Shown here: positions 1-62,564 of the stretch, piece after piece
How positions within the stretch are numbered: position 1 is the first letter of the stretch
How the letters are laid out: every line of letters begins with the position of its first letter
Assembly: GCF_963678975.1 (NCBI RefSeq)
Contig: NC_089279.1
Coordinates: 28,763,609-28,827,608 of the forward strand
DNA length: 64,000 nt
Origin: Dysidea avara
Lineage: Eukaryota; Porifera; Demospongiae; Dictyoceratida; Dysideidae
Direction of reading: 5' to 3'
Translations under genes and position numbers: made by a program
The notes under the pieces: generated by a model
Told to the model about the DNA's origin: nothing
Seen by the model: the letters and a program-made list of their open reading frames with translations, nothing else
Database searches by the model: none

Positions 1-1013
1 GCCCACAGGTTAAACCACTTGAAGGAATGAGCTGAAAATTGCTATGTAGATGGAGTAACTATCGTAGGAGTACCTTTCTGTGGTTTGAAAGGAATCCAGT
101 TAAAGGCCATCGAGATATGACACAAAACCCAACCTATGTCACAATTACGCGATCGATTTTTATGAATAAAATAACTATTAGTTTTCACGCCTACCAGGCA
201 AACCGCTTAGAGCAGTGAGCTGAAAATCGGTGTGTAGCTGGAATAATTATCATAGAAAGTCCAGTAGTACAGAAGAATCGAATTACAAACGACTGAGTTC
301 TGATTCCAAAGCCAACTACGTGTAGCATATGCAAGATCGAGATACTCTAATATAGGGTCCGCAATGAAAAAAATCGATAATCACGAAATTGTTCCCCTAC
401 TATTTCAACCTGTAGGGCATATCAAAGTATTTTTCTGCGTACCAATAAAACTTATTTATCTTTCTCCATACAACGGGAATCGCGATTATTTTATGCTGGA
501 AATCGTGAAAAGCAAGTGATTTAGGCTTCAATATTATGTTGTGACCACCTAATGGTATTAGTTTCCAACCAGAAATGGATCATGTGATTATGGATTGATT
601 TTTCGTTTGCATTATAGCTATACATGGTTAGCTATGTAGTGGTATAATCCAGGTAAAATTTCACTAGTATTTTTATCAACAGTTTACAGAGACACCACTG
701 ATGAAGCATAGAGTTAGGCATAGTAAAACTCAGGTCCTACCAAAAATGGTAGGGTTGTTTGTATATAAGATCAAGATACTCCAATAGAGCAGTCATGCAA
801 ACAGTCTCCAGTCTCTTTACTATTCTGTTCTCTTTATAGTAAGCAAGCGGAATCCATAAACAGGCAGAATTGAATATCAGGGTAAAAATGCAATTGGAAA
901 GAAACCTCAATAGTATCAGATTACTGGTTGGGGGCACACCATAAATGAATCCACATTATGAGTGCATGGCTATACCCAGAGGTAATATTTATAGACAAGA
1001 TTAGGTAATAAGA

Positions 1014-1322
1014 CAGGGGCGGATCCAGAGTCTGGAAAGAGGGGGGGCACCTTGCTGAAAAAAGTTGAAGAGCAAAAAAAAAAAGAAAAAAAAAAGGTCA
1101 CAACTATAATAGCTAGTTATCCTTTACCAAATATATTATATCACGTATGTTATGTAAAATAAAATCCTATTTATAGCTTTATAAGTAAGCTGCACTGCCT
1201 CATGAACATTGTGACTGCTTTATTAGAGTAATTGACTGCTCTATTAGAGTATCTCGATCTTGTATGCAATTTCTTTAAGGGGGGGCATTTGCCCCAAATG
1301 CCCCATCCTGGATCCGCCATTG
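1014..1322. mobile_element. MITE with CAGGGGCGGATCC ends, 5-bp TSD
   Basis: The left end is CAGGGGCGGATCCAG and the right end is a decayed complement (CTGGATCCGCCATTG). TAAGA is duplicated on both sides (1009-1013, 1323-1327). The element contains G-rich subterminal runs and two CTCTATTAGAG modules at 1211-1260. It is non-coding. Confidence 0.75.
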
Positions 1323-1403
1323 TAAGAATAATTATGCTACTAGAGTTTCAATTCACTACAATAATATTATAGCTGCAGAGGCGTTTCAAAAAGAAAATTA
1401 ATA

Positions 1404-1654
1404 TGTGACCTGATTTGCGAAAAAGTACCTTTTCCACACATTTGACATACCAGCAAACAAAATGTCATAACTGTTGACTCCTTGCACTGATTGACTTTCT
1501 GTTTGTATCAAAATGTAACCAACTAATGTAGGCATATTCATGGGAAATTGCAGACACATACTTGCAATGATACAAAAGTTACAACGTTTGGAAGTTGAAA
1601 AAATGGGTCAAATTTTATGTGTGAAAAAGGTACCTTTTTGCAAATCCGGTCACA
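1404..1654. mobile_element. MITE with TGTGACC ends, TA target
   Basis: Inverted ends TGTGACCTGATTTGC... and ...GCAAATCCGGTCACA lie between TA dinucleotides. A subterminal AAAAAGGTACCTTTTT palindrome is present at both ends. The TA target fits a Tc1/mariner-type relationship. It is non-coding. Confidence 0.7.
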
Positions 1655-3514
1655 TATTGGTATGAATTGGCCACCTTGCACTATACTAAATGACACAACA
1701 CTGCACACTTTTGATTAATCAGCCATATCTTCATACTGACTGTAGCTGTAAGTTTATTACGTTCAATAATTGTAATGATTTGTATAGGTATTTCTAGTAT
1801 ACTGCTAAACAAAAATCCATCACACAAACTGGTGTCAAATTATAATGGTAGAAATATCAATCTATTGTGAAAAATTGTAAATTTCCTGTGCCTTAATTAA
1901 ACTCCCTGGTGGAGGCTCTGCACAGTAATAAATACAATACAATATAATAATAAAATTATAATTTTAATGGTACAAATACAAAACTATATAATTATATTTT
2001 AAATTAATTTTTGCTAGCTTTTAAATTTCTGTTTTGCTTGTAGGATGTGCATGCAATTTTATGTTGATCTACAGACTGTGTATGGTATATTTGGTAACGT
2101 ATTGCATGTGTGAGATGTAGAGATTTACTATAGATATCCTTTTTATAATGAGTCATAAGTTTAAGGACTTATGATACTTGGTATAACATGCAGTTTCAAC
2201 GGCCTATGTCTTCCCACTATGGATCTATTACCTTAAATGGGACTTAAAATGTGATTTCTAAAGAACATGTAATTTTCTTCAATGACTTATAAACCTCACA
2301 TAAATTCAGGAATGGCTATACACATGCATAGACAGCTCTACAAAGTGCATGTTATACATATATTATAGAGCACTCAGTACATTGTGGCTGTTGGTATAAC
2401 AGTTATCCAACAGGCCTTTGGTGCGGTTTCTCACGATAAAGCCAAAAATAAGTAATACCCTTCAGCTATGGGTGAAAAACCTTAAATTTAGTTAAAAGCT
2501 CATATATATATAATATAACTTCCTGCAGCCTGCTGTGAAAAAAATAAGATTGAGGACATACCTCCCTAACTTTTAAGAAGAAATTAAGTACAAACTAACT
2601 AAACTTATATACCACTGATGTAAATGATTTTTGTTGGCTCTAAAAATATATAGGACCCAAGTAGAACTAAAACTTGGTAGGACCCAAGTTTTACTATGCC
2701 TAACTCTATGCTTCATCAGTGGTGTCTCTGTAAAATGTTGATAAAATACTAGTGAAATTTTACCTGGATTATACCACTACATACACTGTAGCTAACCATG
2801 TATAGCTATAATGAAAAATCAATCCATAATCACGTGATCTATTTCTGGTTGGGAACTAATACCATTAGGTGGTCACAACATAATATTGAAGCCTGAATCA
2901 CTTGTTGGAGAAACTAAAATTTGGAGTTATTGCAGCCACGCCTCCCATTTTGGTCTCAGATGCGCTAGGAAGAAATTTCATGCCGCTTAGTTTGATGGAA
3001 GGAAAGCTCAGATCCATATGAAACTTGCGCTGTGAACGAAGTGATAACCAAACTATATTGCTGTATAGTGAAGGTTTGTGGGCTTTCCTTTTTTTGATTG
3101 CTGGGTTGCTCCGAATCCAAAAATACGTGATTTTGGGCCAATTTTCGGCAAAGAGTAGCTCCGTACCAAATCCAAAGTAGCAAATCGATCTATTTCTGTT
3201 GTGAGTTATAATTAGGTATAGATTTGGACTATATATGCCAAGTATGGGAAGGAACCCATACTTCATCCGGAGAGCGCGCAATTTTTTACAATTTCCAGCA
3301 TAAAACAATCGCGATTCCCGTCGTATGGAGAAAGATAAATAAGTTTTATTGGTATGCAGGAAAATACTTTGATATGCCCTACAGGTTGAAATAGTAGGGG
3401 GACAATTTCGTGATTATAGATTTTTTCATTGCGGACCCTATCTAATAGAACAGTCACCCTAATAGAGCATTCAGCTACGTTTTTAACTTACTCCATTATA
3501 GAATTATTTTACAT

Positions 3515-5059: not shown

Positions 5060-5425
5060 CAGCTTTGTGACTTGCAATACAAAAAGAAATAATATCTAAA
5101 CCAAAACAGCCAAGCTGTAAAAAAAAGAATGCAGCCCCCAAGGTGAAAAAAGATGTGAAATCCAAGGTGGTGGCCAAGAAATGGCTGTGATGGTAGGTTA
5201 ATGGCAAAAATTTTAATTACGACAATTCAGATGAATTTGGTGCCGAATCCTAGTGGAGGAGGCAACACAAATTCACCGGAATTGCCGTAATTAAAATTTT
5301 TGCCATTAACCCACCATCACAGCCATTTCTTGGTCGCCACCTTGGATTTCACATCTTTTTTCACCTTGGGGTCCGCACTCTTTTTTTACAGCTTGGCTGT
5401 TTTGGTTTAGGTTTTCTTTTCTGCA
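5060..5425. repeat. Palindrome joining copies A and C (AACAGCCAAGCTGT family)
   Basis: Two arms of about 150 bases are inverted around about 5240, running from AAACAGCCAAGCTGTAAAA outward-in and back. The arms include GAAATCCAAGGTGG and GCCATTTCTTGG segments. Related palindromes lie at 52650-52935 and 57551-57877, and broken arms flank 14200-14421. The position shows that this palindrome is the shared 5' end of two divergent family copies (A leftward, C rightward). Confidence 0.8.
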
Positions 5426-6571
5426 GGAATTGTGGAACAAAAGAAGCAATTTTGTGTATAGCTTTTTGTCTGATTAAAAATATTTGTATATTTAGCACCG
5501 AATGATAATCACATACTATAGGTATTAAGTTTACTTCTTATACATAACTGAACTATAGCTGAAACTCTCATTGTTTGTAGCTGAACTCTTTTCAGGGTGA
5601 CTTGTTTCTAGCTGAACTCTCTACATGGTGATTTGTTTCCAGCACATACAGTGTATACTGGGTGAAGCTGATCTCTATAGAGTAACTTGTATTAAGCTGA
5701 TATCTCTACAGGGTGACTTGTTCTAGCTGATCTCTCTACAGGATGATTTGTTTGTAGTTGATCTCAATACCGGTCACCTGATCTCTCTTCAGGGTGACTG
5801 CTCTATTAGAGTATCTCGATCTCGCACTTGCTACACCAAGTTGGATTTCGTGTTGTAACTTTGTGGTTTAAGTCTGATTCTTCTACACCATTGAAGAACC
5901 TTTCTAAGATGATTACTCCATCTGTACAGTGGTTTTCAAAGCATTACTCCAAGTAGTTTTTTCTGGTAGGCGTGGTAAGTAATTGTTTTTTTGTTAGCAA
6001 ATCTCAGTTGCATAATTGTTACACACTTTTGGTTTTTTCGTTGTATCTTTGTGGTTTTTAGCTTGACTTCTTTCAAACCACAAAAGGTTTGAGATTAATA
6101 GTTACCTATTCACCCACCGATTTTCAGCCTTTTCCCATAAGCGGTTTATCCTGTAGGCATGACAACATATTGGTGTTATTTTTCGTGAATAATCGCTAAT
6201 AATTCCTTGACTGTTTATCATATTCCAGCAAATCTTGGTACCAAGATGTGCCTTTATATCCCCCTTCTGTGTGCCAAATTTCAAGGCAGTTGGATATGGC
6301 ACTCGTGTTTTATGGCAGTTTTTGTAAGTGCGAAAAGAGGAAGAAAAAAATGAAGAAAGTAAGCCAATATTTGAAGTCGCATATCTCTGAAGTGATTTCA
6401 CTCAAATTTGGTATGTGGAGTGCTGAAGTTGGTGGGTGTGTCCACAGCAAAATTTGTCTCATTTCGTAAAGGAAGCACATGCAGAGCTAGAGGTGCGAAA
6501 ATTGCATTTTCTTTCTTCCTGTCAATAGTTGTGTACTGGCTTCTTGGCCACATGACACACTACCATGTGCA
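5245..6571 (+). mobile_element. Minisatellite-bearing repeat family, copy C
   Basis: A short minisatellite (about 5560-5795) leads directly into the module at 5795-5821. The two-block tail follows, with motifs at about 5953 and 6142 (188 bp apart), then a segment with GTGCCAAATTTCAAGG and a purine-rich GAGGAAGAAAAAAATG run. It ends in a degenerate hairpin at 6554-6571. Open frames of 60-99 codons here are not conserved in the other copies and are not called as genes. Confidence 0.7.
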
Positions 6572-7619: not shown

Positions 7620-7858
7620 CAGTGGAACCTCAGTTATCCAGACCCCACTTATTCGAATTCTCGGTTAATGGAACTACGGAAATGAGTGCTCTATTAGAGT
7701 AGTGACTGTTCTATTAGGGTAGTTGATCATTCTAATATTTAAAAAAAAAATTATTTATGCTATTTAAGGCTATTTATACACAGTTTCAGAGATATGAACT
7801 TTTCAGACTTATGGACGACCCCTGGTCCCAAGGGATTTTGATAGCTGAAGTTCCACTG
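7620..7858. mobile_element. Tigger/pogo-like MITE carrying the CTCTATTAGAG module
   Basis: Ends CAGTGGAACCTCAGTTATCC and AAGTTCCACTG are flanked by TA on both sides. The phrase 'cagttatccagacc' and the TA target are typical of Tigger/pogo-type elements. Two module copies lie at 7685-7720. It is non-coding. Confidence 0.7.
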
Positions 7859-11608: not shown

Positions 11609-12789
11609 ATCTAATCCAAAACAGCCAAGCTGTAAAAAAATACAGGGTGACTTGTGTGTAGCTGATCTCTATACAGGGTGACTTGTGTGTAGCTGGTCTC
11701 AATACAGGTTTCTTGTTTCTAGTTGATCTCTTGAATTCTTTTCAGGGTGACTGCTCTATTAGGTTGACTGCTCTATTAGAGTATCTCGATCTCGCACTTG
11801 CTGCACCAAGTAGGATTTCGTGTTATAACTCCGTGGCTTTAAGTCTGATTCTTCTACTCCATTGAAGAGCCTTTCTAAGATGATTACTCCATCTATAAAG
11901 CAATTTTCAAAGCGTTACCCAGCGGTTTATCTGGTAGGCATGCCTGGCATGGCATTTTCTAAGTGATTTATTGTTAATGTTGTATTGCTTTCGTGTATTG
12001 GTATTTTGTTGTGTAATGTTGTCTCTGTTTTGTAATGCTGTATTTTGTAGTTATTTTTGTATTCTGGACAGTACCTTGTACAGGCTTACACCTTTTGTAC
12101 TTGTCCTTCCGGGTCTGTGGTAAATTGATAATAATAATAATAATAATAATAATAAAGTAGTAGTTTTTTATTAGCTAATCTCGATTGCGTAATTGTTACA
12201 CACTGTTGGTTTTTTTGTTGTATCTTCCTGATTTTTAGCTCGATTTCTTTCAAACCACAAAAGGTTTGAGGTTCAATAGTTAACCTATTCACCCACCGAT
12301 TTTCAGCTTCTTCCCATACGCGGTTTATCCTGTAGGCGTGACAACATATTGGTGTTATTTTTCGTGAATAATCGCTCATAACTCTTTTCCTGTTTATCGT
12401 ATTCTAGCCAAAGTTGGTACAGAGATGCGCCTTTATATCCCCCTTCAGTGTGCCAAATTTCAAGGAAATCGGATATTGCGGTCGTGTTTTATAGCAGTTT
12501 TTGTAAGTGTGCGAAATGAGGAAGAAAAATAAGAAGAAAAAAACGAAGAAACTAAGCCAATTTCTGAAGTCGCATAATTCGGGAACAATTGAAGCGATTT
12601 CGCTCAAATTTTGGAATGTGGAGTGCTGAAGGTGGAGGGAGTGTCCACAGCAAAAATCGTCTTGTTTCATCAAGGCAGCACAGAGCTACGGAGGTGTGAA
12701 AATTGCGTTTTCTTTCTTCCTGTCAATATACTCACGGGTGTTGCGTGCCGGCTTCTTGGGCCGCACGACACACTACCGTGTGTCTTGAT
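11609..12789 (+). mobile_element. Minisatellite-bearing repeat family, copy D (short, both ends present)
   Basis: It begins with ATCTAATCCAAAACAGCC and one arm of the 5' palindrome, then jumps into a few minisatellite units (11640-11747), the module (11748-11791), two tail blocks, a TAA-type microsatellite (about 12128-12156) and the CCAAATTTCAAGG segment. It ends in the hairpin at 12767-12784 followed by TTGAT. This makes it the most compact view of the family from end to end. It lacks most of the array and one palindrome arm. Confidence 0.7.
12767..12784 (+). other. Terminal hairpin of copy D
   Basis: GACACAC pairs with GTGTGTC across a TACC loop, followed at once by TTGAT. The same structure closes copies E and F. 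Confidence 0.65.
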
Positions 12790-12978
12790 ATCATGATGTT
12801 AGCTTTTATTATGTAGTGCAGTGCTAAATTCTGGTTCCATGGGACTGGTAAAACAATAATGACTGTCAGTTAGTTACTAAGGATTATTGCATACTTTTCT
12901 TTGGAAAATTCACTCATTTTATTGTAAAATCATCCTCAAAAAACAGCCACCCTATATAGTTGCTTTGTAATTAAATAC

Positions 12979-14087: not shown

Positions 14088-14475
14088 TATATAAAAAGGT
14101 GCAGCTTTCAAAAGCCTGGGTGAAAAAAGTTGTGAAATCAAAGGTGGCAGTCATTAAATGGCTGCAGTGGTATTATTTAATAAATGCACAATGCCACTAC
14201 AGTAGACTCTTGGTTATCCAAACCTTAAAGTGTTTCAAGTGATGGTAAAACTGATGAATAATTTAGATAACTGAAGCCCATACATTTATATACAGAGCTC
14301 TGTTCAAATACTCCAATATAACATACACTTGTGCTCAAAATACTCTAACAGAACAGTCATTTCCGATTTTGAACAAATGAGGGTACGGATAAACAAGAGT
14401 CAGATAATTGAGGGTCTACCATATTAAACCACCTTTGATTTCACAACTTTTTTCACCCAGACTTTTGAAAACTGC
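14088..14475. repeat. Broken AACAGCC-family palindrome arms (copy G)
   Basis: A left arm (GCCTGGGTGAAAAAAGTTGT, GAAATCAAAGGTGG) and a right arm (CCACCTTTGATTTC, TTCACCCAGACTTTTG) are split by the Tigger-like element at 14200-14421. This is an isolated 5' end of the minisatellite family. Confidence 0.6.
14200..14421. mobile_element. Tigger-like MITE
   Basis: Left end CAGTAGACTCTTGGTTATCC follows TA. The right end is AGGGTCTACCA, followed by TA. It contains a partial module at 14341-14360 (TACTCTAACAGAACAGTCAT). It is inserted in the palindrome of copy G. Confidence 0.6.
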
Positions 14476-14930
14476 ACCCTTTATACATTTTGGTTGGTTT
14501 TACGTGCTTTTCCTATTTCTTGGCTAATAAGCTACTTACAACAGAATATACACTATGAATTAAGGTATACTCTAATAAAACAGCCAGCTCTCAAGAACAA
14601 TCTTGATTTTGAAACGTTTAGCATAGCAGCTATTTTTAGACATAATTGGTTCTAGCCTACTTTATGCTGTTATATTAATCTCTTAATTGTTCATCTATAG
14701 TCGGTGTATTATTTTCATCTTGTTACAGGGTGCATATAGTGCAATTTTCAATGCTACGGATGAGAATCACAATAGCCTGTTTTGTTTCAAGGGATATTGT
14801 TCAGTTTATTAAGAAAATACAATTTGTCATTATTGTTGCTGCATTTACATGTACAACATTTCATTATGTTAGTAACATTTATGTATGCTTGTAGACCCTT
14901 TGTAGAATGTATAATAACTATATATGTAAT
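14476..14930. other. Unassigned sequence
   Basis: Only a partial module copy (14569-14587) is noted; no gene is seen. Confidence 0.3.
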
Positions 14931-14931
14931 A

Positions 14932-15159
14932 CAATAGAACTGAACCCCTTGGGACTAGGGGTGGTCCATAAGTGTGAAAAGTGCATATCTCTAAACTGTG
15001 TATAAATAACCTTAAAATAATGTAAAGAATATTCTTAAAAAATTCAGTATTATCAACTACCCTAATAGAACTGTCACTACTCTAATAGAGCAGTCATTTC
15101 CGTAGTTTGGTTAACCGAGAATCCAGATAAGTGAGATCCGGATAACTGAGGTTCCACTG
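14932..15159. mobile_element. Tigger-like MITE carrying two modules
   Basis: Ends CAATAGAACTGAACCCC and AACTGAGGTTCCACTG lie between TA dinucleotides. It is the reverse orientation of 7620-7858, sharing GTTATCC/GGATAAC and 'cataagt' phrases. Module copies lie at 15060-15098. Confidence 0.7.
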
Positions 15160-17751: not shown

Positions 17752-19698
17752 GGCCACTCCAATTGGTAATTATGTTTCTGGTCCTTTGAAAATCAGTTCT
17801 ATAGGTGCGGGCGGGCGGAATTCAGCAACAAAGCAACAATGATTCGAAGTGACTGCTCAATTAGAGTACTTTTTGTCATTTACTGACTGTTCTATTAGAG
17901 TATATCGATCCGTACTATGCACTCTGCCCATTTCTAGCAGGTTTTCAATGATAAAATACAAATTATGACACTTAGATAGGGTCCGCAACGCGAAAAATCG
18001 ATATCCTCCAATCAACTACCTAACTATTGTCATGTGTTAGGCTAAGTGTAACTTGAATAACACCAGCGTGGCAGCCAAGTTTGTCACTTTCTTCTGGTAG
18101 AAAACGATACAAATGTCTTAAAATCACGTGATTTTTCGCTGCAGCGGTTCGTAGGGTTCTTCGTATGCCACGATATTCACTCTCAACATTGTTTAAGTAG
18201 TCTATCATCAACTCAAAGTATCGGTGGTTTGATTTTATTGGTCAGTTTCTGGTGGCAGCACGATCTGTGCAGCTTTTTGACGACAGACAAAATGTTTCTT
18301 CCTCTGGAGCGCAGGACAAGCAGAGCAGCAACTGCGCCGTGGGTCAGCAATGACCAGTACTAGGTAAAGTACCTGCATGCGGAGTATGGTTATAATTGAA
18401 GCTTGTTAGCCATCTGGCTGAGCCATCTATATGCTGAAATTCGGCCAAAATGACGCGATTTTTGCAAACAAATACCAGAATGGTTGATACATCAGTGAGA
18501 CAGTCTCCAACAGCAAGGATACGAAGCTTATAAACACCTAGCAATACGGCTATCTCGCCCAGTAAACGCATAGAGCAATCCTGTGCATGAAATAGGCACT
18601 CACGTGATTGAAATTCAAATTGCGGAAATACCCATGAAATCGCTTTCATTTCTGAATAGGAACCATGCAATGTGCTCCTTTTGTAAATATTTGTGTTAAT
18701 TGTTCACTCAGACGTGGTCTGGGCCAGTGCAGGTGTGTTTTGTACTATGATGGTATCGTAGGAAAAGTCTTAAACTGCTGGGCTAGTCGAGATGCTGAAC
18801 CTAACGTACACAAACTGATTGTCACTTGATTCCTAGTGATTTTAAGGTCATTGGAATAGATTATAGTTGTATTTTCGGAGATTTGAATATCAATCACGTG
18901 AGTGCCTATTTCATGCATTGGACTGCTCTATGCGTTTACTGGGCGAGATAGCCGTATTGTTAGGTGTTTATAAGCTTCGTATCCTTGCTGTTGGAGACTG
19001 TCTCACTGATGTATCAACCATTCTGGTATTTGTTTGCAAAAATCGCACCATTTTGGCCGAATTTCAGCATATAGATGGCTCAGCCAGATGGCTAACAAGC
19101 TTCAATTATAACCATACTCCGCATGCAGGTACTTTACCTAGTACTGGTCATTGCTGACCCACGGCGCAGTTGCTGCTCTGCTTGTCCTGCGCTCCAGAGG
19201 AAGAAACATTTTGTCTGTCGTCAAAATGCTGCATAGATCGTGCTGCCACCAGAAAATGACCAATAAAATCAAACCACCAATACTTTGAGTTGATGATAGA
19301 CTACTTGAACAATGTTGAGAGTGAATATCGTGGCATACGAAGAACCCTACGAACCGCTGCAGCGAAAAATCACGTGATTTTAAGACATTTGTATCGTTTT
19401 CTACCAGAAGAAAGTAACAAACTTGGCTGCCACGCTGGTGTCATTCAAGTTACACTTAGCCTAGCACATGACAATAGTTAGGTAGTTGATTGGAGAATGT
19501 CGATTTTTCGCATTGCGGACCCTAACTTAGATAGTTAGATTTAGCATACTTGTTGCAGTCCAATATTTGTTTCTGAAATCCAGCTTTTTCAAAAAGCTGA
19601 AGCGGGAATTTTACCCATGTATTTCTGAAATTTCACATTCTCCAAAGAGGATGCGGGCGGTGGACCAGCCGGAAACATAATTACTAATTGGAGTGGCC
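17752..19698. mobile_element. PIF/Harbinger-like MITE (TTA target) with a nested foldback
   Basis: Inverted ends GGCCACTCCAATTGGTAATT and AATTACTAATTGGAGTGGCC are flanked by TTA on both sides, the usual Harbinger target. GATGCGGGCGGT-type subterminal words are shared with 63093-63538. Two modules lie at 17850-17911. The 1.5-kb foldback at 17977-19524 is inserted within it, leaving about 400 bases of original element. Confidence 0.7.
17977..19524. mobile_element. Foldback element, 644-bp arms, 7-bp TSD
   Basis: Ends TAGGGTCCGCAA and its complement are the same as the element at 353-3440. They are flanked by ACTTAGA duplications (17970-17976, 19525-19531). Arms 17977-18620 and 18881-19524 are nearly identical; the 260-bp spacer is unique. 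Both arms hold two outward-reading open frames (63 codons at 18020-18211 and 19290-19481; about 96-108 codons at 18344-18670 and 18867-19157). Their matching translations follow from the arm identity and match no domain I know. Confidence 0.85.
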
Positions 19699-22163: not shown

Positions 22164-22380
22164 TATCGTGGCTGATGCACGTTACAGCAGGTTCACAACA
22201 GCGGCAAGCAGGAGGGCCGACGATTGAGCGGATAGAGGACAACGTGTTACACACTACTCATCGCGTACGAAAAACATGGCATCCAGTCACACATTACAGT
22301 ATACGCATGCGCATAACCTAAGGCCTAAAATACAATAAGGAAGTACAATAATGAATATACTATAAAGTCAGTTCATGACA
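22164..22380 (-). repeat. BEL 3' LTR
   Basis: It reads TGTCATGAAC... to ...CCACGATA on the minus strand. The pol stop codon falls inside it. CCCGGAGGA directly upstream may act as the polypurine tract. Confidence 0.9.
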
Positions 22381-37844: not shown

Positions 37845-38035
37845 CAGGGCCGCCCACATTGGGGGTAACTGGGGTATTTTTCCCCCTACCACAGCCTGAA
37901 AGGGGCCACTTGAATACCTGTTTAAAGAAAGATCGATATACTCTAATAGAGCAGTCAGGATCTAGACCCTTCCTTGCCCCTGGGCCCCTCTTTAACTCTT
38001 TTCCCTGGGCCCTCTAATTTCTCTGGACGGCCCTG
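37845..38035. mobile_element. hAT-type MITE, 8-bp TSD
   Basis: Ends CAGGGCCGCC and GGACGGCCCTG with perfect 8-bp duplications TTAGTGGC (37837-37844, 38036-38043). It carries a module at 37931-37958. Confidence 0.85.
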
Positions 38036-38173
38036 TTAGTGGCATGCAACTGCAGTCAACTAACACCCATTTTAACTAGTAAACCCTTAACAACACTTTG
38101 CCTTTCATCTTGTACTGCATTGAAACGATCAAGATACTCTATTAGAGCAGTCACAAAACAGCTGTAACACAGC

Positions 38174-38414
38174 CATAGGCGGCGGAAAGGGGGGGGGGGG
38201 GGGGGGGGGCTTAGCCCCCCCTCAGAATGATATCACACCGAAATTATCTTTCTTGGAGTGGGGCTGAAAACCGTGATAAAGATCGAGATACTCTAATAGA
38301 GCAGTCACTCTAATAAAGTATTCAGTGTGTAGCGAGCTATGTAAGGATTTTTATGTAGTTTATCAGCTAGAAATGGTAGCTGGTGAGGTGGAAGCTCTTG
38401 TCAGTTGGTTGCGA

Positions 38415-38445
<31 letters not shown>

Positions 38446-38531: not shown

Positions 38532-39080
38532 AATCAATATTTAGCATAGTTACAACTTCTGCTTAGCATCGGATTGTATAGTTTAAATTACTAGCTACTT
38601 ACAGACTTTACAATATAAAAATATGGCACTTGTAGAAATGTGACTGTTTTATTAGAGTATCTCGATCTACTTCAAGCATTGACTAATTCAAGTGAAGAAG
38701 CTACGCCCCTGCCAAGAGATCTTGTGAAATGAAATGAGAAAAGGCAAGTATGTACAGAGACAATAGAGGGGCGCGTAATTATGTCCTGTTGTAAATAAAC
38801 GCCTTTAAAATTTATATTACTACTAAATAAACGCACCAGAATAGGCTTGTGTGGCTGTTGTCTCCAAGGTTGTCTCATTATTTGTCTTTTCGTGTTGAAG
38901 GGATTTAGTCGCAATTGGTGAGTTTAACTATACATGTATTTGTGTTGTAAAACTTAATTGTAAAAAGGCGATTAGCACATATCATGATAAACATGTATTT
39001 GTCACAGTAGAGTCTCTCACGAAGTCACGATTATTATGAGACATTGGACCAGGGTAAAAAATTTACTGCTATATTTAGAG
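38532..39080. other. Unassigned sequence
   Basis: Only a module copy at 38641-38667 is recognised. Confidence 0.3.
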
Positions 39081-43689: not shown

Positions 43690-44640
43690 CCTTCTGTACA
43701 AGTGGCCACCAAGGTAGGTCCACTGTGGATGAAAGCCAGGCATTAGATATTGGGAATTTCATGTATTGAAGGTATTCCAGGGCTTCTGGTAGTCTGAAAT
43801 CTCACTACAGTTTACTTAGGCAGTGTTGTGGTCACCACTAAACCACTGGAATGCTGTGTTTTGGTCTTATGCTTGAACTGAAATGGATATTCTAACAATA
43901 TATCCTATGGATAATGACTTCATCACTTTCTTCATCAGGAGCTTATAAGGACCAAAAGTGAAAATTCTTATACTTTGGGCAAACACCCAACTTGGAAATG
44001 TCCCATTAACCTAAGTCAGGACACAGGAGCAGTGCCTGTGGCAATCTAACAGACTGGTTGCCTCCTTGCTGCCAGCACTCACTGTCTCACACGCTGTCAT
44101 ATGTCAGTATCTTAATAATTAATCCTTCATCAGGGGCGGATCCAGGGGGGGTTCCAAGGGTTCCATGGAACCCCCCTTTTGAAAAGCCTTCTCACTCGAG
44201 ATACTCTAATAGAGCAGTCAAATCAAGATACTCTAATAGAGCAGTCACAGTGGTCTTTTGAGGAGCAGTGTAGCAAGCTATATATCTAGTTATAAATAAG
44301 GAAGGAAATATGGTTGGTGAGGTGGCAGCTATTGTCAGCAGGTGATGACCTTTCTTTTTTTTTTGGTCTTCAACTTATACAGCTAGGCTGAAGTTGCAAT
44401 TTCAAAGTGGAACCCCCCTTTTTAAAAGTCTGGATCCGCCCCTGTTCATTAATAGTACAGTGAAAACTGGTCATTAGCTATTGTAGGGACAAATTTTCTG
44501 ACCTAGCTTATTAAGGAGGTGGCTGAAATTTTCAGCTGCAATTGGTAAGAAGCATCTTCAATGCACCTTAACTGGCTATAGAGATGGATTTAGTGTACAT
44601 TACTGTAAGTTTGTTTTTAGTTCCAGGTCTCAGTCACTTA
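43690..44640. repeat. Two-part repeat, arrangement B then A, interrupted by a MITE
   Basis: Block B (43690-44100) and block A (44100-44125, 44445-44640) match 39081-39715 in a different arrangement. The MITE 44131-44444 splits block A. Confidence 0.6.
44131..44444. mobile_element. MITE with CAGGGGCGGATCC ends, 5-bp TSD
   Basis: Ends CAGGGGCGGATCCAGG and CTGGATCCGCCCCTG, duplication TTCAT (44126-44130, 44445-44449). Two modules lie at 44198-44248. The sister repeat at 39081 lacks this insertion. Confidence 0.85.
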
Positions 44641-46740: not shown

Positions 46741-47124
46741 CAGGGGCGGAGGAAGTAGTTGATATGAGGGGGGGCTGGGCTGACCCAGACTTATAGAAGT
46801 GAGGTACTACATTGTCTCTGGTTTGGTGAGGTGAGACCAAAAAAAAGGTCACAACCAGCTTACAATAGCTGCCCACCTCACCAGTTATGCATTTATAGCT
46901 GATAGATTACATAAAAATCCTTACATAGCTCGCTACACACTGCTCTAATACTGTGACTGCTTTATTAGAGTGACTGCTCTATTAGAGTATATTGATCTTT
47001 ATTGCGGTTTTCAGCCCCACTCCAAGAAGGATAATTTCGGCGTGATATCATTAGGGGGATAAGCCCCCCTTAGCAGACCGAGGAGGGGCTTCACCCCTCT
47101 AGCCCCCCCTTTCCGCCGCATATA
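46741..47124. mobile_element. hAT-type MITE with GGCGG ends
   Basis: Inverted relative of 38174-38523. The flanks GAAACGGT (46733-46740) and TAAACGGT (47125-47132) match at seven of eight bases. Modules lie at 46953-46997. Confidence 0.75.
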
Positions 47125-48583: not shown

Positions 48584-49888
48584 CAGTAGGACCTTAATTA
48601 TCCGAACACTAGGTTATCTGAACAGTATAAGTGACTGCTCTATTAGAGTATTTTATTAGGTAAATGTTCTATTGTAAGTCACTCACTGCATGGGCGTAGG
48701 AACAGGGGGGGCCACAGGGACCAGAGCCCCCCTAGTCTGTGGCCATGGATAGATATAACAGGCCAGGGCCCCTCCAGTTTGCAGCAGGAATCATTTTTAC
48801 AGTAATGCACCATGTGACACGTAATAATTATAGATCATTGGCCTACTTGGACGTTGATAAGCTATGTTCCTTCCTCACCGAGTGAAATGTTGGTCCTAGT
48901 TTATTTGAAATAATATTAGAGGCGCTTAAAATGCTGTGATAATAAGCTACACCTCACGTGTGATTCGTGTTAGAAAATAATTAAAGAACTGTGCAGCTGC
49001 AGAGAGTTAACTTATATCTCAGTCTCACTGTCAGAAAACTTTAATCCGTAGTCGTGGTAGACCTATTTCAATGAGTCCAGTTGTTAGTGAAGGAGCTTCT
49101 AGCGAGGCTTCTAGCGGTTCCCAAGCGGTTCTAGCAGAGGTAGTATTGTTCTAGCCCTGGCTCCCACCCTAATAACGACCCTGTGATGGAGGAAGCTGAA
49201 TCAGAGCAGTCCCATTTCCCCCTGCACTTTCCAGACAACTACGGATCTGCGAACTAACACAGAATGTAGTTAATAGCTATTCGGGGGGGGGGGGGGGAGA
49301 TGTTAATTCATTAATTCATCCATATAAGTAATTTATAACTAGCTATCCTATCTATATGTGTATTTCTGGGGGTATATTTAACAACATGAAATTAGTTCAA
49401 GTAACAGCCCCTTAAAAGCCTTATTAACTGTGTTTTGTGATCTCATCATTCTATCACATCATTAACGTGGTACACAAGGTTGCTATAAGATTACTTATCT
49501 AGCAAAACTGTGATTATGATTATTGGCTAAAATTGCCTCCAGATTCAACCTCATAGCTCCTATTTTTCAAAATTTTCCTGGGGGGGCATGCCCCCAGACC
49601 CCCCTGGAAGGAGAGCATGCTTTGCATGCCTTTGCATGCTCTGAGTGCACTTCACACACTGTGCATGTACCCGCAAGTAGCTACACTCTCCTCCACCATT
49701 GCTTTACTAGTTATCAGTAGTGGCACCCCTATAGTTTTTTGCTTTGCTACGCCCCTGAAGTGGATGTTCTATTAGGTAGTTGAACTAAACTATGTATATA
49801 AATGAATGGGCTTCAGTTATTTAAACAAATTCACTTATCTAAACACTTTTACTGGCACACAGGTGTTCAGATAATGGAGGTCCAACTG
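48584..49888. mobile_element. Tigger-like MITE split by a CATGGGCGTAGG element
   Basis: Outer ends CAGTAGGACCTTAATTATCC and GATAATGGAGGTCCAACTG. A module lies at 48631-48651. The inner element 48689-49756 begins CATGGGCGTAGG and ends TACGCCCCTG, close to the ends of 61737-62564. No clean duplication is seen around the inner element. Confidence 0.6.
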
Positions 49889-50515: not shown

Positions 50516-50833
50516 CAGGGGAGTACGCAGGAATTTTGAAAAAGGGTTTCCACTACAGCTAAGTGACTGTCATATTAGGTTTATATAGCCTGACTGCTTT
50601 ATTAGAGTATCTCGATCTTTTCACCAAATTTATAATTCAGAACAAAGCTATAAGTGTTGCTATCTTATGAGAAACTATTATTTAACTAAGATAAAAGTTT
50701 ACAATGTGTCCTGCTCCATGACAGATTCCAGATTGTGGAAACCTGAAGTCTCAATTTCTCAATGTTTCAAGTACTGTGTAAAATCCAAAGGGGTTTCCTG
50801 AAACCCCTGGAAACCCCCCTCCGTATGCCCCTG
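50516..50833. mobile_element. MITE with CAGGGG ends, 5-bp TSD
   Basis: Ends CAGGGGAGTACGCAGG and CCGTATGCCCCTG, duplication CCAGT (50511-50515, 50834-50838). A module lies at 50591-50617. Confidence 0.85.
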
Positions 50834-51463: not shown

Positions 51464-52935
51464 ATCAAGACACACAGTAGTGTGTCGTGCGGCCCAAGAA
51501 TCCGGCGCGCCACACCGTGTGTATATTTACAGGAAGAAAGAAAACGTGATTTTCACACCTTTGTAGCTCCATGATCCCTTAGCCAAATGGAACTAGTTTC
51601 ACTTCCAAGGTGCCCTCCAGGTAGGCCACGCCACATACCAAATTTGAAGGAAACCTCCCTAGCTGTTTCTGAGATATGAGTGGCCAAAGTTTCCTTTAAA
51701 TTTCTTTGTTTTCTTTTCTTCACCATAGGGGGCTATGGGGGCTTCGATTTCTTTTCACACACTTTGCAAAAATTGCTATAAAACACAAACTTGTAACTCC
51801 ATTGTATCAATATTTGGTACAAGTAAAGAGCATATAAAGGTACATTCGCGCACCACGTTTGCTATGAATCTGATAAATATCCAAGGAGTTATGAACAAAA
51901 CTTTTGTGACGGCTACAGGGTAAACCGAGTAGAGGAATAACTTGAAAATTCGTGTGTACATAGGCTGATCATCGTAGGAGTGCCTTTTGGTGGTTAAAAC
52001 AGCAACAGACTTACAGCTACAAAGTTATAAAGCAAAAACCAAGCAAGTGTAAAATCGCGGGATGGAGATACTCTAATAGAGCAGTCACTACATGGGGTGC
52101 AAAAAAGGTGCATAAAAAATGTCGAAAAAGATGAACCCATCATGACCAGAGTTCAAACCAAGGACCTCCATACCTAACCCTTGCATCCTTAACCACTAAA
52201 TCATTGCTATCTCGGCTGATCACTTCACTTAATTTCTACCTTATAAATGAAAATTCTAGCTAATAAGTAAAATTGATCTACCAATAGAAAATTTAGATTG
52301 TTCTAGAACATTCTATGTGTGTTCTATTAGATGATTTTAACGAAAGCAAAAACGTGCACTCTATTAGAGCATTAGCACCATTCTATTGTTACAACACTTT
52401 GTGGCTCAATCTAGTAGCTATTCATTAAATCAGAGCCATTTTTGTATGGATCAGTGGTATATTTGTACTATTAACTTAGTTTCACCCCCAGGTGGTCTGC
52501 GAGCAGACTAATATGACCGACTTGCACCAATCATCATCATCATAATCATCATAAGTGCTATATGTTAGCAGAACTTGTGATACAACAGCCTGGCAATCAT
52601 ATCCGAGTAAAGAGGTGCAGGATTTGGTTTTTGAAAATACAAAAAGAAGTGAAATCCACTCAAAAACAGCCAAGCTGTAAACAAAGAGTGCAGCACTCAA
52701 AAGCCTGGATGAAAAAAGCTGTGAAATCAAAGGTGGTGGCTAAGAAATGGCTGCAATGATGTTAATGCTAAAAATTTTTAATAATGGCCGTGTGCACTGT
52801 TAAAATTTATTAGCATTAACATCATTGCAGCCATTTCTTGGCCGTCACCTTTGATTTCACAACTTTTTTCACCCAGGTTTTTGAGGGCCACACTCTTTTT
52901 TTACAACTTTGCTGTTTTTGAGTGGATTGTCTTAC
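51464..52935 (-). mobile_element. Minisatellite-bearing repeat family, copy E (no array)
   Basis: On the minus strand: 5' palindrome (52650-52935), TTTCACTTCTTTTTGTATTT (52632-52651), a module at 52064-52088, one tail block, and the closing hairpin at 51469-51486 (GACACAC, loop TACT, GTGTGTC) followed by TTGAT. It contains a tRNA-like SINE head (52138-52212) and lacks the minisatellite. Its 5' end lies about 450 bases from the 3' end of the receptor-like gene, in the same orientation. Confidence 0.65.
52138..52212 (-). repeat. tRNA-like SINE head
   Basis: Minus-strand TTTAGTGGTTAAGGATGC (A-box-like) and GGTTTGAACTCTGG (B-box-like) have tRNA spacing. Pairing of the acceptor ends is poor, so it is a SINE relic. 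Confidence 0.45.
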
Positions 52936-57550: not shown

Positions 57551-57877
57551 AATCTAATCAAAAACAGCCAAGTTGTAAAAAAAGGTGCAGCCCCTAAAAA
57601 GGCCAAGGTGAAAAAGATATGAAATCCAAGATGGCGGCCAAGAAATGGCTGTGATGGTAGGTTAATGGTAAAAATTTTAATAACGACAATTCAGGTGAAT
57701 TTTGTGCCAAGACCAAGCGGCACCAAATTCACCTGAATTGTGGTTATTAAAATTTTTACCATTAACCTACCATCACAGCCATTTCTTGGCCGCCACCCTG
57801 GATTTCACATCTTTTTCACCTTGGCCTTTTTAGGGGCCACACCTTTTTTTACAGCTTGGCTGTTTTTGATTAGATAT
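57551..57877. repeat. 5' palindrome of copy B
   Basis: Arms of about 155 bases start ATCTAATCAAAAACAGCCAA and end in the complement. The centre is near 57714, around CAAGACCAAGCGG. Confidence 0.85.
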
Positions 57878-58064: not shown

Positions 58065-61000
58065 ATAACTTGTTCGCAGCTGATCTTTCTACTAAGGGAC
58101 TTGAAATGTAGCTAAACTCTCTACAGATTGATTTGTTTGTAGCTGCACTCTCTGCAGGGTGATTTGTTTGCATCTAAACTCTCTACAGGGCGATTTGTTT
58201 GTAGAAGAACTCTCTACAGGATAGTTTCTTTGTCACTGAACTCTCTACAGAGTGGGTGCTTTGTAGCTGAACTCTCTACAAGATCACTTCTTCTAGCTGA
58301 TCTGTCTATAGGGTGACCTGATCTCTCTGTAGGGTGACTTTTATCTAGCTGAACACTCTACAGGGTGATTTGTTTGTAGCTGAACTCTCTACAGGGTAAT
58401 TTATTTGTAGCTGATCTCTATGCAGGATGATTTGTTTGTAGCTGAACTCTCTACAAGATGGTTTCTTTGTAGCTGAACTCTCTACAAGGTGACTTACTTC
58501 TAGCTGATCTCTCTACAGGGTGACTTGTATAGCTGAACTCTCTACAGGGTGATCTGTTCATAGCTGAACTCTCTGGGTCATGCTGAACTCTCTACAGGAT
58601 GGTTTCTTTGTAGCTGGTCTCTACAAGGTGACTTGTTTCTAGCTGATCTCTCTACAAGGTGACTTCTCCTATTACAGGGTGACTTGTGTCTATAGCTGAA
58701 CTATCTACAGGATGATGATTTGTTTGTAGCTGAAATCTCTACAGGGTGATTTGTTTGTAGCTGAATTCTCTACAGGATGACTTGTTTCTACATATAGCTG
58801 ATCTCTGTATAGGGTAACTAGTTTCTAGTTGAACTCTCTGCAGAGTGGGTTCTTTGTTGCTGAACTCTCTACAAGGTGACTTCTTCTAGCTGACCTCTCT
58901 ATAGGGTAACCTGATGTCTCTGCAGGGTGACTGTTATCTTGCTGAACACTCTACAGGGTGATTTGTTTGTATCAAAACTATCTATAGGGTGATTTTTTTA
59001 TACCTGAACTTTCTACAGGGTGATTTGTTTATAGCTGAACTCTCTACAGGGGGTGATTTGTTTGTAACTGATATCTCTACGGGTAGATTTGTTTGTAAAT
59101 TCTCTACAAGGTGATTTGTTTGTAGCTGAACTCTCTACAGGGTGGTGTGTTTCTAGCTGATCTCTATACAGGGTGATTTTTTTTTTGTAGCTGATCTCTC
59201 TACAGGGTGATTTAGGTTGTAGCTGCTCTCTCTACAGTGGGTAATTTGTTTGTAACTGAAATCTCTACAGGTTGATTTGTTTGTAGCTGAAGTCTCTACA
59301 AGGTGTTTTGTTTGTAGCCGATCTCTCTACAGGGTAATGTGTTTGTAGCTGAACTCACTGCAAGGTGATTTGTTTGTAGCTGATCTCTCTACAGGGTGAT
59401 TTGTTTGCAGCTGAACTCTCTACAGGGTGATTTGTTTGTAGCTGAACTCTCTACAGGGTGATTTGTTTGTAGCTGATCTCTCTAGAGGGTGATTTGTTTG
59501 TAGCTGATCTCTCTACAGGTTGATTGGTTTGTAGCTGATCTCTCTACAGGGTGATTGTTTGTAGCTGATCTCTCTACGGGGTGATTTGTTTGTAGCTGAT
59601 CTCTCTAGAGGGTGATTTGTTTGTAGCTGATCTCTCTACAGGGTGATTTGGTTGTAGCTGATCTCTCTATACAGGGTGATTTGGTTGTAGCTGCTCTCTC
59701 TACAGTGGGTGATTTGTTTGTAACTGAAATCTCTACAGGTTGATTTGTTTGTAGCTGAAGTCTCTACAAGGTGTTTTGTTTGTAGCAGATCTCTCTACAG
59801 GGTAATTTGTTTGTAGCTGAACTCACTGCAAGGTGATTTGTTTGTAGCTGATCTCTCTACAGGGTGATGTGTTTGTAACTGAACTCTCTACAGGGTGATT
59901 TGTTTGTAGCTGATCTCTCTACAGGGTGATTGTTTGTAGCTGACCTCTCTACAGGGTGATTTGTTTGTAACTGAAGTCTCTATACGGTGTTTTGTTTGTA
60001 GCTGATCTCTCTACAGGGTATTTGTTTGTAGCTGAACTCACTGCAAGGTGATTTGTTTGTAGCTGATCTCTCTACAGGGTAATTTTTTTTGTAACTGAAC
60101 TCTCTACAGGGTGATTTGTTTGTAGCTAATCTCTCTAGAAGGTGATTTGTTTGTAGGTGATCTCTCTACAGGGTGATTTGGTTGTAGCTGATCTCTCTAT
60201 ACAGGGTGATTTGGTTGTAGCTGATCTCTCTACAGTCGGTGATTTGCTTGTAACTGAAATCTCTACAGGTTGATTTGTTTGTAGCTGAAGTCTCTACACG
60301 GTGTTTTGTTTGTAGCTGATCTCTCTACAGGGTAATTTGTTTGTAGCTGAACTCACTGCAAGGTGATTTGTTTGTAGCTGATCTCTTTACAGGGTGATTT
60401 ATTTGTAGCTGAACTCTCTACAGGGTGATTGGTTTGTAGTTGAACTCTCTACAGGATTGTTTCTTTGTCACTGAACTCTCTACAAGGTGACTTGCTTCTA
60501 GCTGATCTCTGTAAACGGTGACTTCTTCTAGTTGATCTCTCTACAGGGTGACTTGTATAGCTGAACTCTCTACAGGGTGATCTGTTCATAGCTGAACTCT
60601 CTACAGGTTGATTTGTTTGTAGCTGAAATCTCTTGTTTCAAACTGATTTCACTGTAGGGTAACTTGTTTGTAGCTGAACTCTCTACAGGATGGTTTCTTT
60701 GTAGCTGAACTCTCTACAGAGTGATTTTTTTGTAGCTGAACTCTATATAGGGTGATTTGTATGTACCTGAACTTTCTACAGGGTGATTTGTTTATAGCTG
60801 AACACTCTGCAGGGTGATTTGTTTGTAGTTAATCTCTCTACAGGGTTTCTTTGCAGCTGAGATCTCTACAGGGCAACTTCTTCTAACTGAGCTCTCTCTT
60901 GTTTCTAGCTGTTCTCTCTACAGAGTAACTTTTTTGTATAGCTGAACTCTTTACATGTGGTTTTTTAGTTGCTGAACTCTCTACACTGTGACTTGTTTGT

Positions 61001-61440
61001 AGCAAAATTCTCTACAGAGTGACTTGTATGTAGCTGAATTCTCTACAGAGTGACTTACTTGTAGCTGAACATTGTATAAACTATAAAGTGACTTGTCTGT
61101 AGCTGAAATCTCTACAGGGTTACTTGTTTGCAGCTTGTCTCTATAGGTTAACTTGTTTGTATAGATGAACTCTCTACATGGTAGTTTCTTTGTAGCTGAA
61201 CTCTCTCCACAGTGACTTGTTTGTAGCTGAACTCTCTAGAGAGTGTAGCCAAACTCTCCACAGGGTGCATGACTTGTTTATAGCTGAACTCTCTTCAGTG
61301 TGACTTGTAATGTTCTGATTCTTCCGGCTGAATCACTACAGCGATATATCTGTAGCTGAACTCTCTATAGGGTGACTTGCTTCTTGCTGAACTGTCTATA
61401 AGATTAACTGTTTGCAGCTGAACTCTCTACAGAATAACTT
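58065..61440 (+). repeat. Minisatellite array, 31-bp unit, about 100 units, with higher-order pattern
   Basis: The consensus unit is GTAGCTGAACTCTCTACAGG followed by GTGATTTGTTT (31 bases). GAACT/GATCT and GATTT/GACTT variants are mixed. A block of about 16 units recurs three times, marked by CTCTCTACAGTGGGT-like units at about 59225, 59693 and 60220. The array runs directly into the CTCTATTAGAG module at 61480-61523. Confidence 0.95.
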
Positions 61441-61497
61441 GCAATGTAATAGAATTCTATAATGGAGTAATAAATTAGCTGAATGTTCTATTAGGGT

Positions 61498-61523
61498 GAC
61501 TGTTCTATTAGAGTATCTCGATC
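61498..61523 (+). repeat. CTCTATTAGAG module (array edge of copy B)
   Basis: One of more than twenty copies: GACTG, then TTCTATTAGAG (core variant), then TATCTCGATC. It is preceded by a hybrid minisatellite-like unit TTCTATTAGGGTGACTG. Confidence 0.8.
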
Positions 61524-61736
61524 TCGCATATGTTACACGTAGTTGGCTTTGGAATCATAACTCAGTGGTTTGTAATCCGATTCTTCTGTACTACTGCAAG
61601 GACTTTCTATGATGATTATTCCAGCTTCACACCGATTTTCAGCTCACTACTCTAAGCGGTTTGCCTAGTAGGCGTGAAACCTAATAGTTTTTTATTCATA
61701 AAAATCGATCGCGTAATTGTAACACAGGTTGGGTTT

Positions 61737-62564
61737 CAGGGGCGTAGCCAGGATTTTTTGAAGGGGGGTTCCAGCACCAGCATTGAGTTACTAGAAGCAG
61801 GGGTCTGGGGGCGCAGCCCCCAGCCGCTGAGAGACTTTCAATATTTTAATAAATCAAAACTCAGCAAATCGCTATATTATTTTATGCAAAAAGTACATTA
61901 ATTATGATGCATTAAGTGGCCCTGGGATGAAGGTACTGTAGTACTAGATAAAGTCACCTAGTGGAAGCAGATAGCATAACACATAGAGACACATATAGCT
62001 AGTAATCTGTAAGTGATGGTTATATCTCACTGTGGTATAGGAGCCATGAATCTACTGATACAAATGACGATCAAACAATATAACTATACAAATATGCATA
62101 GCATGAATTCATTTTGCATAACACAAGTGATAAATTACTGGAGCTCTATATCTTTAAACACTGCATACCAAAGCTATAGCAGTATAAGGTCATGCTAAGT
62201 TTTGCATTTAATGTTGGAATGTCTGAAAAACTTCATATGGACATGGATATTTACATGCATGTTCTATTAGAGTATACCTGACTGCTCTATTAGAGTATAT
62301 ACCTGACTGCTCTATTAGAGTATATCGATCTTTTTAACAAGTTTTGAAGAGGGCTCATGTTACCTCTGTAAATCCTTCCCTGAGAGATGAATGTAAGTTT
62401 TATCAATTGTTGTGCTGTGCCATTACACTATATTGCTCACTCATTTTGTCCTGCCACACTAAATGGTGTGTTAGGATCCTGCTTGCAGAAGTCTAAATTT
62501 TACAGGGGGGGGGGGGGGGGGGGGGGTTCCTGAACCCACCGGGACCCCCCTCCCTACGCCCCTG
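61737..62564. mobile_element. MITE with CAGGGGCGTAGCC ends, 5-bp TSD
   Basis: Ends CAGGGGCGTAGCCAGG and CCTACGCCCCTG, duplication GGTTT (61732-61736, 62565-62569). Copy A at 120-150 shows the unoccupied site. Three tandem modules lie at 62261-62330, and a poly-G run lies before the right end (62504-62526). Confidence 0.9.

Follow-up and report, generated by a model that had tools for sequence, protein, structure and literature searches.

The window, the whole 64,000-nt stretch of Dysidea avara DNA analysed here, contains 35 copies of a short module at 23 places (Table 1). Gathered through similarity to the core and by visual inspection, the copies delineate a conserved unit, the 19-mer core TGACTGCTCTATTAGAGTA, which forms a sharp-edged block. 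The 9-bp tail TCTCGATCT often directly follows the core. Tigger-like hosts lack the tail TATCTCGATC, as do the copies at 9541 and 14570. A sequence-only reading of the window had described a near-palindromic core. This core is real, but the unit is 19 bp long rather than the 11-bp palindrome alone, and the module is directional. Each place listed in that reading holds a module copy, exact or with few mismatches, and the extent exceeds what it had estimated.

Table 1. Module copies and delimited host elements in the window (MITE-borne, minisatellite-borne and other copies in order of position).
Position	Strand	Feature	Remarks
334..361	-	Module copy of minisatellite element, split by insertion of element L	Other half 3438-3473; TCTAATA on both sides; uncut relative 61480-61524
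353..3440	.	Element L, TAGGGTCCGC ends, inserted in a core	7-bp duplication TCTAATA
768..795	-	Core and tail within long-TIR element L	
1014..1322	.	Host B1: MITE, CAGGGGCGGATCC ends, 5-bp target duplication TAAGA	17 copies aligned
1212..1260	+	Two cores 21 bp apart and tail, MITE B1	
3438..3473	-	Two minisatellite-element cores, 17 bp apart, adjoining element L insertion	
5795..5822	+	Core and tail, minisatellite array end	
7620..7858	.	Host C1: Tigger-like, CAGTGGAACCTC..TTATCC ends, TA duplication	
7683..7721	+	Core pair, spacing 20 bp, Tigger-like MITE C1	
9539..9557	-	Tail-less core in an undelimited host	
11748..11792	+	Two cores 17 bp apart and tail, minisatellite array end	
14341..14359	-	Core, Tigger-like MITE C3 (14200-14421, TA duplication)	
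14568..14586	-	Tail-less core in an undelimited host	
15058..15096	-	Core pair, spacing 20 bp, Tigger-like MITE C2 (14932-15159, TA duplication)	
17850..17911	+	Two cores 34 bp apart and tail	Similar layout (33 bp apart) in joined stretch L090+L058
37845..38035	.	Host F: hAT-like MITE, CAGGGCCG ends, 8-bp duplication TTAGTGGC	
37930..37957	-	Core and tail, MITE F	
38126..38153	-	Core and tail	Direction opposite to copy at 38641
38280..38324	-	Two cores 17 bp apart and tail, MITE B' (38174-38523, 8-bp duplication AACACAGC)	
38641..38668	+	Core and tail near CAGGGGCGTAGC end (38711)	
44193..44247	-	Core pair, spacing 27 bp, both with tail letters, MITE B2 (44131-44444, 5-bp duplication TTCAT)	
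46941..46998	+	Two cores and degenerate third, 17 bp apart, and tail, MITE B' (46741-47124, 8-bp duplication, 7/8)	
48632..48650	+	Exact core, Tigger-like element C4 (48584-49888, CA/TA)	
50591..50618	+	Core and tail, MITE E (50516-50833, 5-bp duplication CCAGT)	
52060..52087	-	Core and tail, minisatellite-family element	Here without 31-bp array
61480..61524	+	Two cores 17 bp apart and tail, end of 31-bp minisatellite array (~58107-61245)	
61737..62564	.	Host D: CAGGGGCGTAGCC ends, 5-bp duplication GGTTT, nested in minisatellite element	4 copies aligned
62256..62331	+	Core triplet, spacings 23 and 25 bp, and tail, MITE D	

Thirteen exact 19-mers occur in the window, against about 1e-6 expected from base composition. 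With up to two mismatches, CTCTATTAGAG gave 75 strand-wise matches; 100 dinucleotide shuffles gave 18.9 ± 4.8, with a maximum of 33. When a 19-column matrix was trained on a single host set (minisatellite; B and B'; Tigger-like; D to I) and used at a threshold that yields roughly 0.1 hit in each shuffled window (40 shuffles), it recovered copies in all other hosts, and all matrix hits belong to the 35 window copies. The copy at 345, which is split by an insertion, was missed by every matrix except the one whose training set included it. The whole-genome scan that had been called for (551 Mb) returned 107,591 copies at no more than two mismatches and 3 for the reversed control. The exact 21-mer of core and tail, CTCTATTAGAGTATCTCGATC, is present 12,586 times in the genome (control 0). 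At two mismatches or fewer the window holds 26 copies, about twice the genome mean density. Flanking sequences were fetched for 83 loci among the 100 exact-21-mer places listed, all on contig C1; the 85 rows of the flank analysis represent 83 distinct places, L024 and L025 overlapping.

Neighbouring cores in the window point in the same direction in all nine cases (9:0). The same is true of 108 of the 109 close neighbours in the window and fetched loci (246 cores), figures in which the L024/L025 overlap is counted twice and which include loci picked for the exact 21-mer. Tandem duplication would produce such an arrangement, which a binding site does not need. In the same material the tail is mostly found on the last core of a tandem set, where most non-last cores cannot display one because the next core starts too early; among the 18 non-last cores with room for it (spacing of at least 28), two carry at least seven of the nine tail letters. 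Family consensus sequences show upstream cores that deviate more from the 19-mer than does the tail-bearing core, many of these families having been picked by the exact tail-bearing 21-mer. The spacers vary among families and the cores stay. A search for a second motif at a fixed distance (to 150 bp, 15 representatives) yielded three scattered columns (-26, +157 and +159) above 0.55 bit.

The readable target duplications of the hosts are 5 bp, 8 bp, TA and 7 bp. The 5-bp, 8-bp, Tigger-like (TA) and minisatellite hosts named in the sequence-only reading were recovered, whereas a Harbinger-like host was not confirmed from readable target duplications. The delimited hosts carry DNA-transposon terminal inverted repeats and target duplications and are not Pol III-headed retroposons. 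The window contains no Rfam match above the gathering score. Nor do the hosts appear to share one transposase, since 5-bp, 8-bp and TA duplications are associated with different ends, the transposases being deduced from ends and duplications. When the modules were masked, 26 host sequences fell into about 20 groups, between which almost no homology is left, a number that includes undelimited neighbourhoods (I, L in part, cl3 and five single loci) and in which C1 is grouped apart from C3 and C4 although all are Tigger-like. Several groups have CAGGGG-type ends, so that the transposase systems must be fewer than 20. The claim that the hosts are otherwise unrelated therefore stands for most of them, which share nothing detectable outside the module, but several do share terminal-repeat types. 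Common descent of all hosts is, as had been argued, insufficient, because most are without detectable similarity outside the module.

In aligned copies of six families (3 to 17 copies each) the module lies at the same position, most of these loci having been picked for the module, so that module-less copies are under-sampled. Five short partial alignments that were scored as core-less are not full family members. A strict scan found 11 delimited elements, all with a core (seven locus-defining, the other four being three D and one B2); it overlooks elements with imperfections, for example B1, E, F, B' and 48689-49757. The list of Tigger-type ends has 25 rows, many of them weak, and C1-C4 were known beforehand through their cores. 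The Tigger-type end of L094 has a degenerate core with 4 mismatches. The core is absent from 48689-49757 (CAGGGGCG end), and from both 39971-40146 and L031 2499-3063 (CAGTG.AACCT ends, TA on both sides), the best matches having 6 to 8 mismatches. Fold-back elements, which were also seen, have no core of their own.

Conservation of the core was assessed in diverged relatives and in young families. Five disjoint homologous pairs of diverged relatives have 2 mismatches in 95 core positions versus 99/648 in the flanks (P 6e-5), the upstream side of the pair 61503/52071 being excluded as not alignable. The difference persists when CpG columns are removed (flanks 92/616, P 8e-5), when the most diverged pair is removed (core 1/76 versus flanks 75/571, P 5e-4) and when four core pairs, partly dependent on the first five, are added (core 7/171, P 2e-5). 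The tail, with 7 mismatches in 36 positions of the diverged pairs, changes like the flanks. Six young families have flanks 1-4% from consensus. Their cores, limited to those that played no part in locus choice, changed at 27 of 1346 positions versus 475/17086 in the flanks (P 0.05); for this count the terminal cores of the five 21-mer-chosen families were excluded, and family D, which was not so chosen, was kept whole. With family-specific rates, 39 changes would be expected for the 27 observed (P 0.026). Young cores therefore drift nearly like their flanks, so that single copies are nearly free to change and the constraint lies in lineages. Deep conservation combined with young drift is easier to reconcile with lineage selection, or with renewed capture of fresh copies, than with host selection on each site. 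Fresh intact capture shortly before the amplification of each family would likewise yield deep conservation.

The data suggest that the module aids the spread of elements or is repeatedly picked up by them. We tentatively favour the reading that it is a directional cis signal which is passed between unrelated DNA-transposon families, remains intact in amplifying lineages and, as a putative host-protein site, aids mobilisation or copying. The 19-bp core and 9-bp tail would move between unrelated, mostly non-autonomous DNA transposon families and would be kept intact in the element lineages that keep amplifying. A putative host protein, such as a regulatory, chromatin or nuclear-tethering factor, would most likely bind the module, and binding would favour mobilisation or copying of the element, with affinity rising where cores stand in tandem. 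Transfer between families may occur by recombination or capture when one element lies in or beside another. MITEs need no promoter, so the benefit of the module to them is undefined. The core-less elements of the same terminal types take a little from our confidence in the shared-signal reading, tentative as it already was. It is possible, although rather doubtful, that unrelated DNA transposons converged, by mutual passing, on a 19-bp amplification signal for one putative host protein, and that this signal helps decide which MITE families spread.

A somewhat doubtful but quite conceivable alternative is that the module comes from an abundant repeat, for instance the end of the minisatellite element, and was taken up by new MITE families as filler between their terminal repeats and carried without benefit. 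The minisatellite element is indeed common, forming the second-largest flank cluster (17 of 85 rows), and nesting is seen both for D in the minisatellite element and for L in a minisatellite core. Young copies drift nearly as their flanks do, and some elements of the same terminal type have spread without a core. However, random filler predicts other pieces of the source and varied lengths, while the shared part is 19-28 bp and similarity ends at its edges; the contrast between core and flanks in diverged relatives, with the adjoining tail unconserved, also argues against it. The 31-bp minisatellite unit could not be established as a derivative of the module: two unit variants aligned to it with scores of 8 and 10, and among 5000 shuffled units 869 and 135, respectively, scored as high. 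It is improbable that the module is the footprint of an unrecognised insertion process, such as a site-specific element or templated repair that adds core and tail beside an existing core in constant direction. Co-directional neighbours, the tail on the last core and the greater departure of upstream cores from the 19-mer (in families often chosen by the 21-mer) would agree with such a footprint, but the window flanks, read by eye, show no target duplication around the 28-bp unit, family copies carry the module at the same place (with module-less copies under-sampled) and no source element was found.

Retention of the copies one by one as host regulatory sites is very unlikely: the slight deficit of changes in young copies points that way, but the copies number more than 100,000, and in the six families sampled they change at almost the rate of their flanks. 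Descent from a single module-bearing element, with host differences due to divergence, is likewise very unlikely. B1, B2 and B' share interior sequence despite 5- versus 8-bp duplications, TIR-like sequence is common to cl4 and cl7, a single weak match of 28 bp (E 0.009) links B1 with D, and CAGGGG-type ends are found in many groups. However, the Tigger-like (TA), 5-bp and 8-bp families imply different transposases, and there is otherwise no between-group homology outside the module at E 0.01. Among the explanations offered by the sequence-only reading, a preferred insertion target is exemplified once, by element L in a core (duplication TCTAATA), and is not a general explanation. Repeated acquisition and a selected binding site both survive, the data favouring acquisition followed by lineage selection, although acquisition alone is quite conceivable.

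Known promoter signals and outside sources were also searched. An snRNA proximal sequence element was rejected as a candidate: in the 200 bp upstream of four U2 genes (among 14 matches over the cut-off), the best match on both strands has at least 7 mismatches. As to a possible role as transposase promoter, one pogo-like transposase gene lies near cores, without visible element ends joining the gene to the module. In genome contigs, TGACTGYTYTATTAGRGTA was found in 7 stretches, all titled bacterial; the seventh is L001, and the other six were taken as chance matches, about 90 bp of each having been viewed. In viral contigs, TGACTGYTYTATTAGRGTA has 6 matches, which represent two distinct contexts, and TATTAGAGTATMTYGATC has 8. 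Longer module and minisatellite patterns gave 0 matches in the virus and prokaryote source search. A literature search with the literal 11-mer returned unrelated subjects only, as judged by title, and searches on related ideas returned nothing equivalent, as judged by title and the opening of the abstract.

What lets non-autonomous families amplify, beyond transposase-compatible ends, is an open question on which the module bears. A word that is intact across about 20 host groups yet drifts in single copies offers a direct handle on amplification. If the proposed signal is real, more than 100,000 near-identical dispersed sites would be ready-made potential regulatory or binding sites in the genome.

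The central domains of SINEs (CORE, V, Deu, Ceph) are a close parallel for an internal block conserved across families that differ elsewhere; a selective constraint that matters for retroposition has been argued for (PMC3272025). They belong to retroposons and are longer (62 bp in that study), whereas the present core is 19 bp long, often tandem, and found in DNA-transposon groups with varied duplications. The m1m2 pairs of Caenorhabditis CERP2 and CELE2 MITEs, which are bound by HIM-17, act in germline promoters and seed thousands of host-factor sites, are likewise short MITE-borne motifs (PMC9757741). They are motif pairs of two related MITE families, in contrast to one motif in about 20 groups with a putative factor. 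The same short motif in several element families, as would be looked for in a host-factor site, is seen here at the level of sequence. Caenorhabditis Helitrons carry clustered, partly tandem heat-shock elements; these resemble the module in their arrangement but concern a single class of transposon, with HSF-1 as the known factor (PMC6927752). Finally, the oyster Cg_HINE elements, non-autonomous Helentrons with satellite-like central repeats (PMC7492417), are mobile elements with tandem arrays and differing flanks, like the minisatellite host. The shared part of Cg_HINE is the array, whereas the 19-bp core is common far beyond the array-bearing family.

The sequence-only reading had described a near-palindromic core module common to unrelated transposon families, and at every place it named the core CTCTATTAGAG was found, exactly or with a few mismatches. 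Matches to CTCTATTAGAG with up to two mismatches far exceed chance in the window (75 strand-wise, vs 18.9 ± 4.8 in shuffles). The information profile of 35 collected copies delimits a sharp-edged block, TGACTGYTCTATTAGAGTA, which spans core-relative positions -6 to +12, with a weaker tail adjoining its 3' edge. A matrix derived from one host set, used at a threshold of about 0.1 match per shuffled window, found copies in all other hosts, and all its matches were among the 35. In the 64-kb window there are 13 exact copies of the 19-mer, vs about 1e-6 expected from base composition. The genome-wide count proposed by the earlier reading covered 550.8 Mb in 108 contigs: CTCTATTAGAGTATCTCGATC is present in 12,586 exact copies (reversed control, 0), and with up to two mismatches the 19-mer reaches 107,591 copies (control, 3), or roughly one every 5 kb. 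The window, with 26 such copies, has about twice the mean density.

Cores are frequently in tandem. Neighbouring cores within 60 bp point in the same direction in 9 of 9 pairs in the window alone and in 108 of 109 when fetched loci are included, these loci being partly picked for the 21-mer (core plus tail letters) and a few counted twice. Spacings range from 17 to 53 bp, with 17, 21, 25 and 32 bp accounting for 86 of the 108 same-direction pairs; spacer letters vary from family to family. At least 7 of the 9 tail letters are matched by 115 of 138 array-ending cores, a figure inflated by the choice of loci, and by 4 of 108 non-last cores, just 18 of which have room for a tail (2 of these 18 match).

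Target duplications in the window are of 5 bp for the MITEs B1, B2, D and E, of 8 bp for F and twice for B' (one of the latter 7 of 8), of 7 bp for element L, and TA for the Tigger-like C1, C2 and C3 (CA/TA for C4). In the genome, 83 loci were fetched from the first 100 listed 21-mer places, all on a single contig. Clustering of their flanks (85 rows for 83 distinct places) gave 15 clusters of 31, 17, 11, 7, 4, 3, 2, 2 and 2 members plus six singles, among them new families whose duplications are 5 bp (cl11) or, as judged by eye, 8 bp (cl4). Within each of six families the module occupies one fixed place in the aligned copies, as the earlier reading had proposed to check. When 26 host sequences were compared at E 0.01 with modules masked, no homology appeared except for B1-B2, cl4-cl7, C3-C4, the minisatellite elements among themselves, and a weak 28-bp match between B1 and D (E 0.009); B1, B2 and B' have interior sequence in common. 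The hosts thus form about 20 groups, some of them undelimited neighbourhoods. Since several groups have CAGGGG-type or Tigger-like ends in common, separate transposase systems are fewer than that. Some elements of host-like terminal types lack a core, their best matches having 6 to 8 mismatches, and the fold-back elements observed have none of their own.

Features of the window and of fetched stretches (L001, L031)
Feature	Position	Strand	Description
Element L	353-3440		Long terminal inverted repeats (TAGGGTCCGC); its insertion interrupts a module core, to which the duplication TCTAATA belongs
Palindromic element, AACAGCCAAGCTGTAAAAA ends	5087-5419, 52653-52928, 57551-57875; fragment near 11614-11640		Array side of several minisatellite-family elements
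Hairpin with sequence at or close to ACACACTACCGTGTGT, then CTTGAT	12720-12790, 51464-51530		Apparent end of minisatellite element
Retrotransposon	22164-28183	-	DUF1759, DUF1758, Integrase_H2C2, DUF5641 matches
Core-less element	39971-40146		CAGTG.AACCT ends, TA both sides
Core-less element	48689-49757		One CAGGGGCG end
Stop-free frame, 1305 residues	53377-57294	-	Weak Chlam_PMP repeat match
Core-less element	L031 2499-3063		CAGTG.AACCT ends, TA both sides
Low-GC, eukaryote-like DNA with one core	L001 4262-5370		End of bacterial MAG contig

The AACAGCCAAGCTGTAAAAA-ended palindromic element may be the far end of the minisatellite element; similar sequence opens an aligned block in two fetched stretches (L084 and L085). 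The hairpin with CTTGAT at the apparent end of the minisatellite element recalls rolling-circle elements. The retrotransposon, which we take to be BEL/Pao-like, is flanked by two 217-bp direct repeats, 100% identical. No further Pfam family matched the stop-free frame at E 0.001. The core TGACTGTTCTATTAGAGTA also occurs at L001 4552-4570, in a Rhodobacteraceae MAG contig whose GC falls from about 0.55 to 0.35-0.39 at the core-bearing end; at E 0.01 L001 had nothing in common with the sequence compared beyond the core region. This end may derive from a eukaryotic host, having been joined to bacterial sequence in what is possibly a chimera arising in a host-associated sample.

Between the members of five homologous, phylogenetically disjoint pairs, 2 of 95 core positions differ, vs 99 of 648 flank positions (P 6e-5). 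The result holds with CpG columns removed (flanks 92/616; P 8e-5), with the most diverged pair removed (core 1/76, flanks 75/571; P 5e-4), and with the addition of four more core pairs, some of them non-independent (core 7/171; P 2e-5). The tail (7/36) behaves like the flanks. Six young families were compared with their own consensus sequences: cores that had played no part in the choice of loci carry 27 differences in 1346 positions and flanks 475 in 17086 (ratio 0.72, P 0.05), with 39 expected in cores from family rates (P 0.026). Taken together, these rates indicate that single copies drift almost freely and that further-diverged lineages keep the core.

A word kept by amplifying lineages and lost in single copies is the pattern expected of selection on transposon lineages, in which elements with the word would leave more descendants. 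The main rival is that an intact word was freshly captured before each expansion, which predicts the same picture. Selection at host level on each site is improbable: the copies exceed 100,000, and the ones sampled drift almost neutrally. A common ancestor of all hosts, which the sequence-only reading held could not explain the module, is likewise unlikely, as target duplications differ and the hosts have almost no sequence in common.

An snRNA-type promoter reading was not supported for the four U2 genes examined (L091-L094; 14 genome matches over the cut-off), which have conserved upstream blocks in common, none of them the module. Degenerate cores lie elsewhere in L092 and L094; in L094 a Tigger-like end has such a core 57 bp inward. 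A pogo-like transposase gene (HTH_psq and DDE_1 domains) is present in L058 with L090, a stretch with several module arrays.

In titles and abstract beginnings, a coverage outside which most subscription journals lie, we found no report of the motif, nor of one motif common to so many unrelated DNA-transposon groups. Among known cases the nearest are the shared central domains of SINEs (PMC3272025), the m1m2 motifs of a pair of related MITE families in Caenorhabditis (PMC9757741), Helitrons bearing heat-shock elements (PMC6927752) and Helentrons with satellite-like repeats (PMC7492417). A further paper notes that the sites of a given factor mostly come from several transposon families (PMC8896005).
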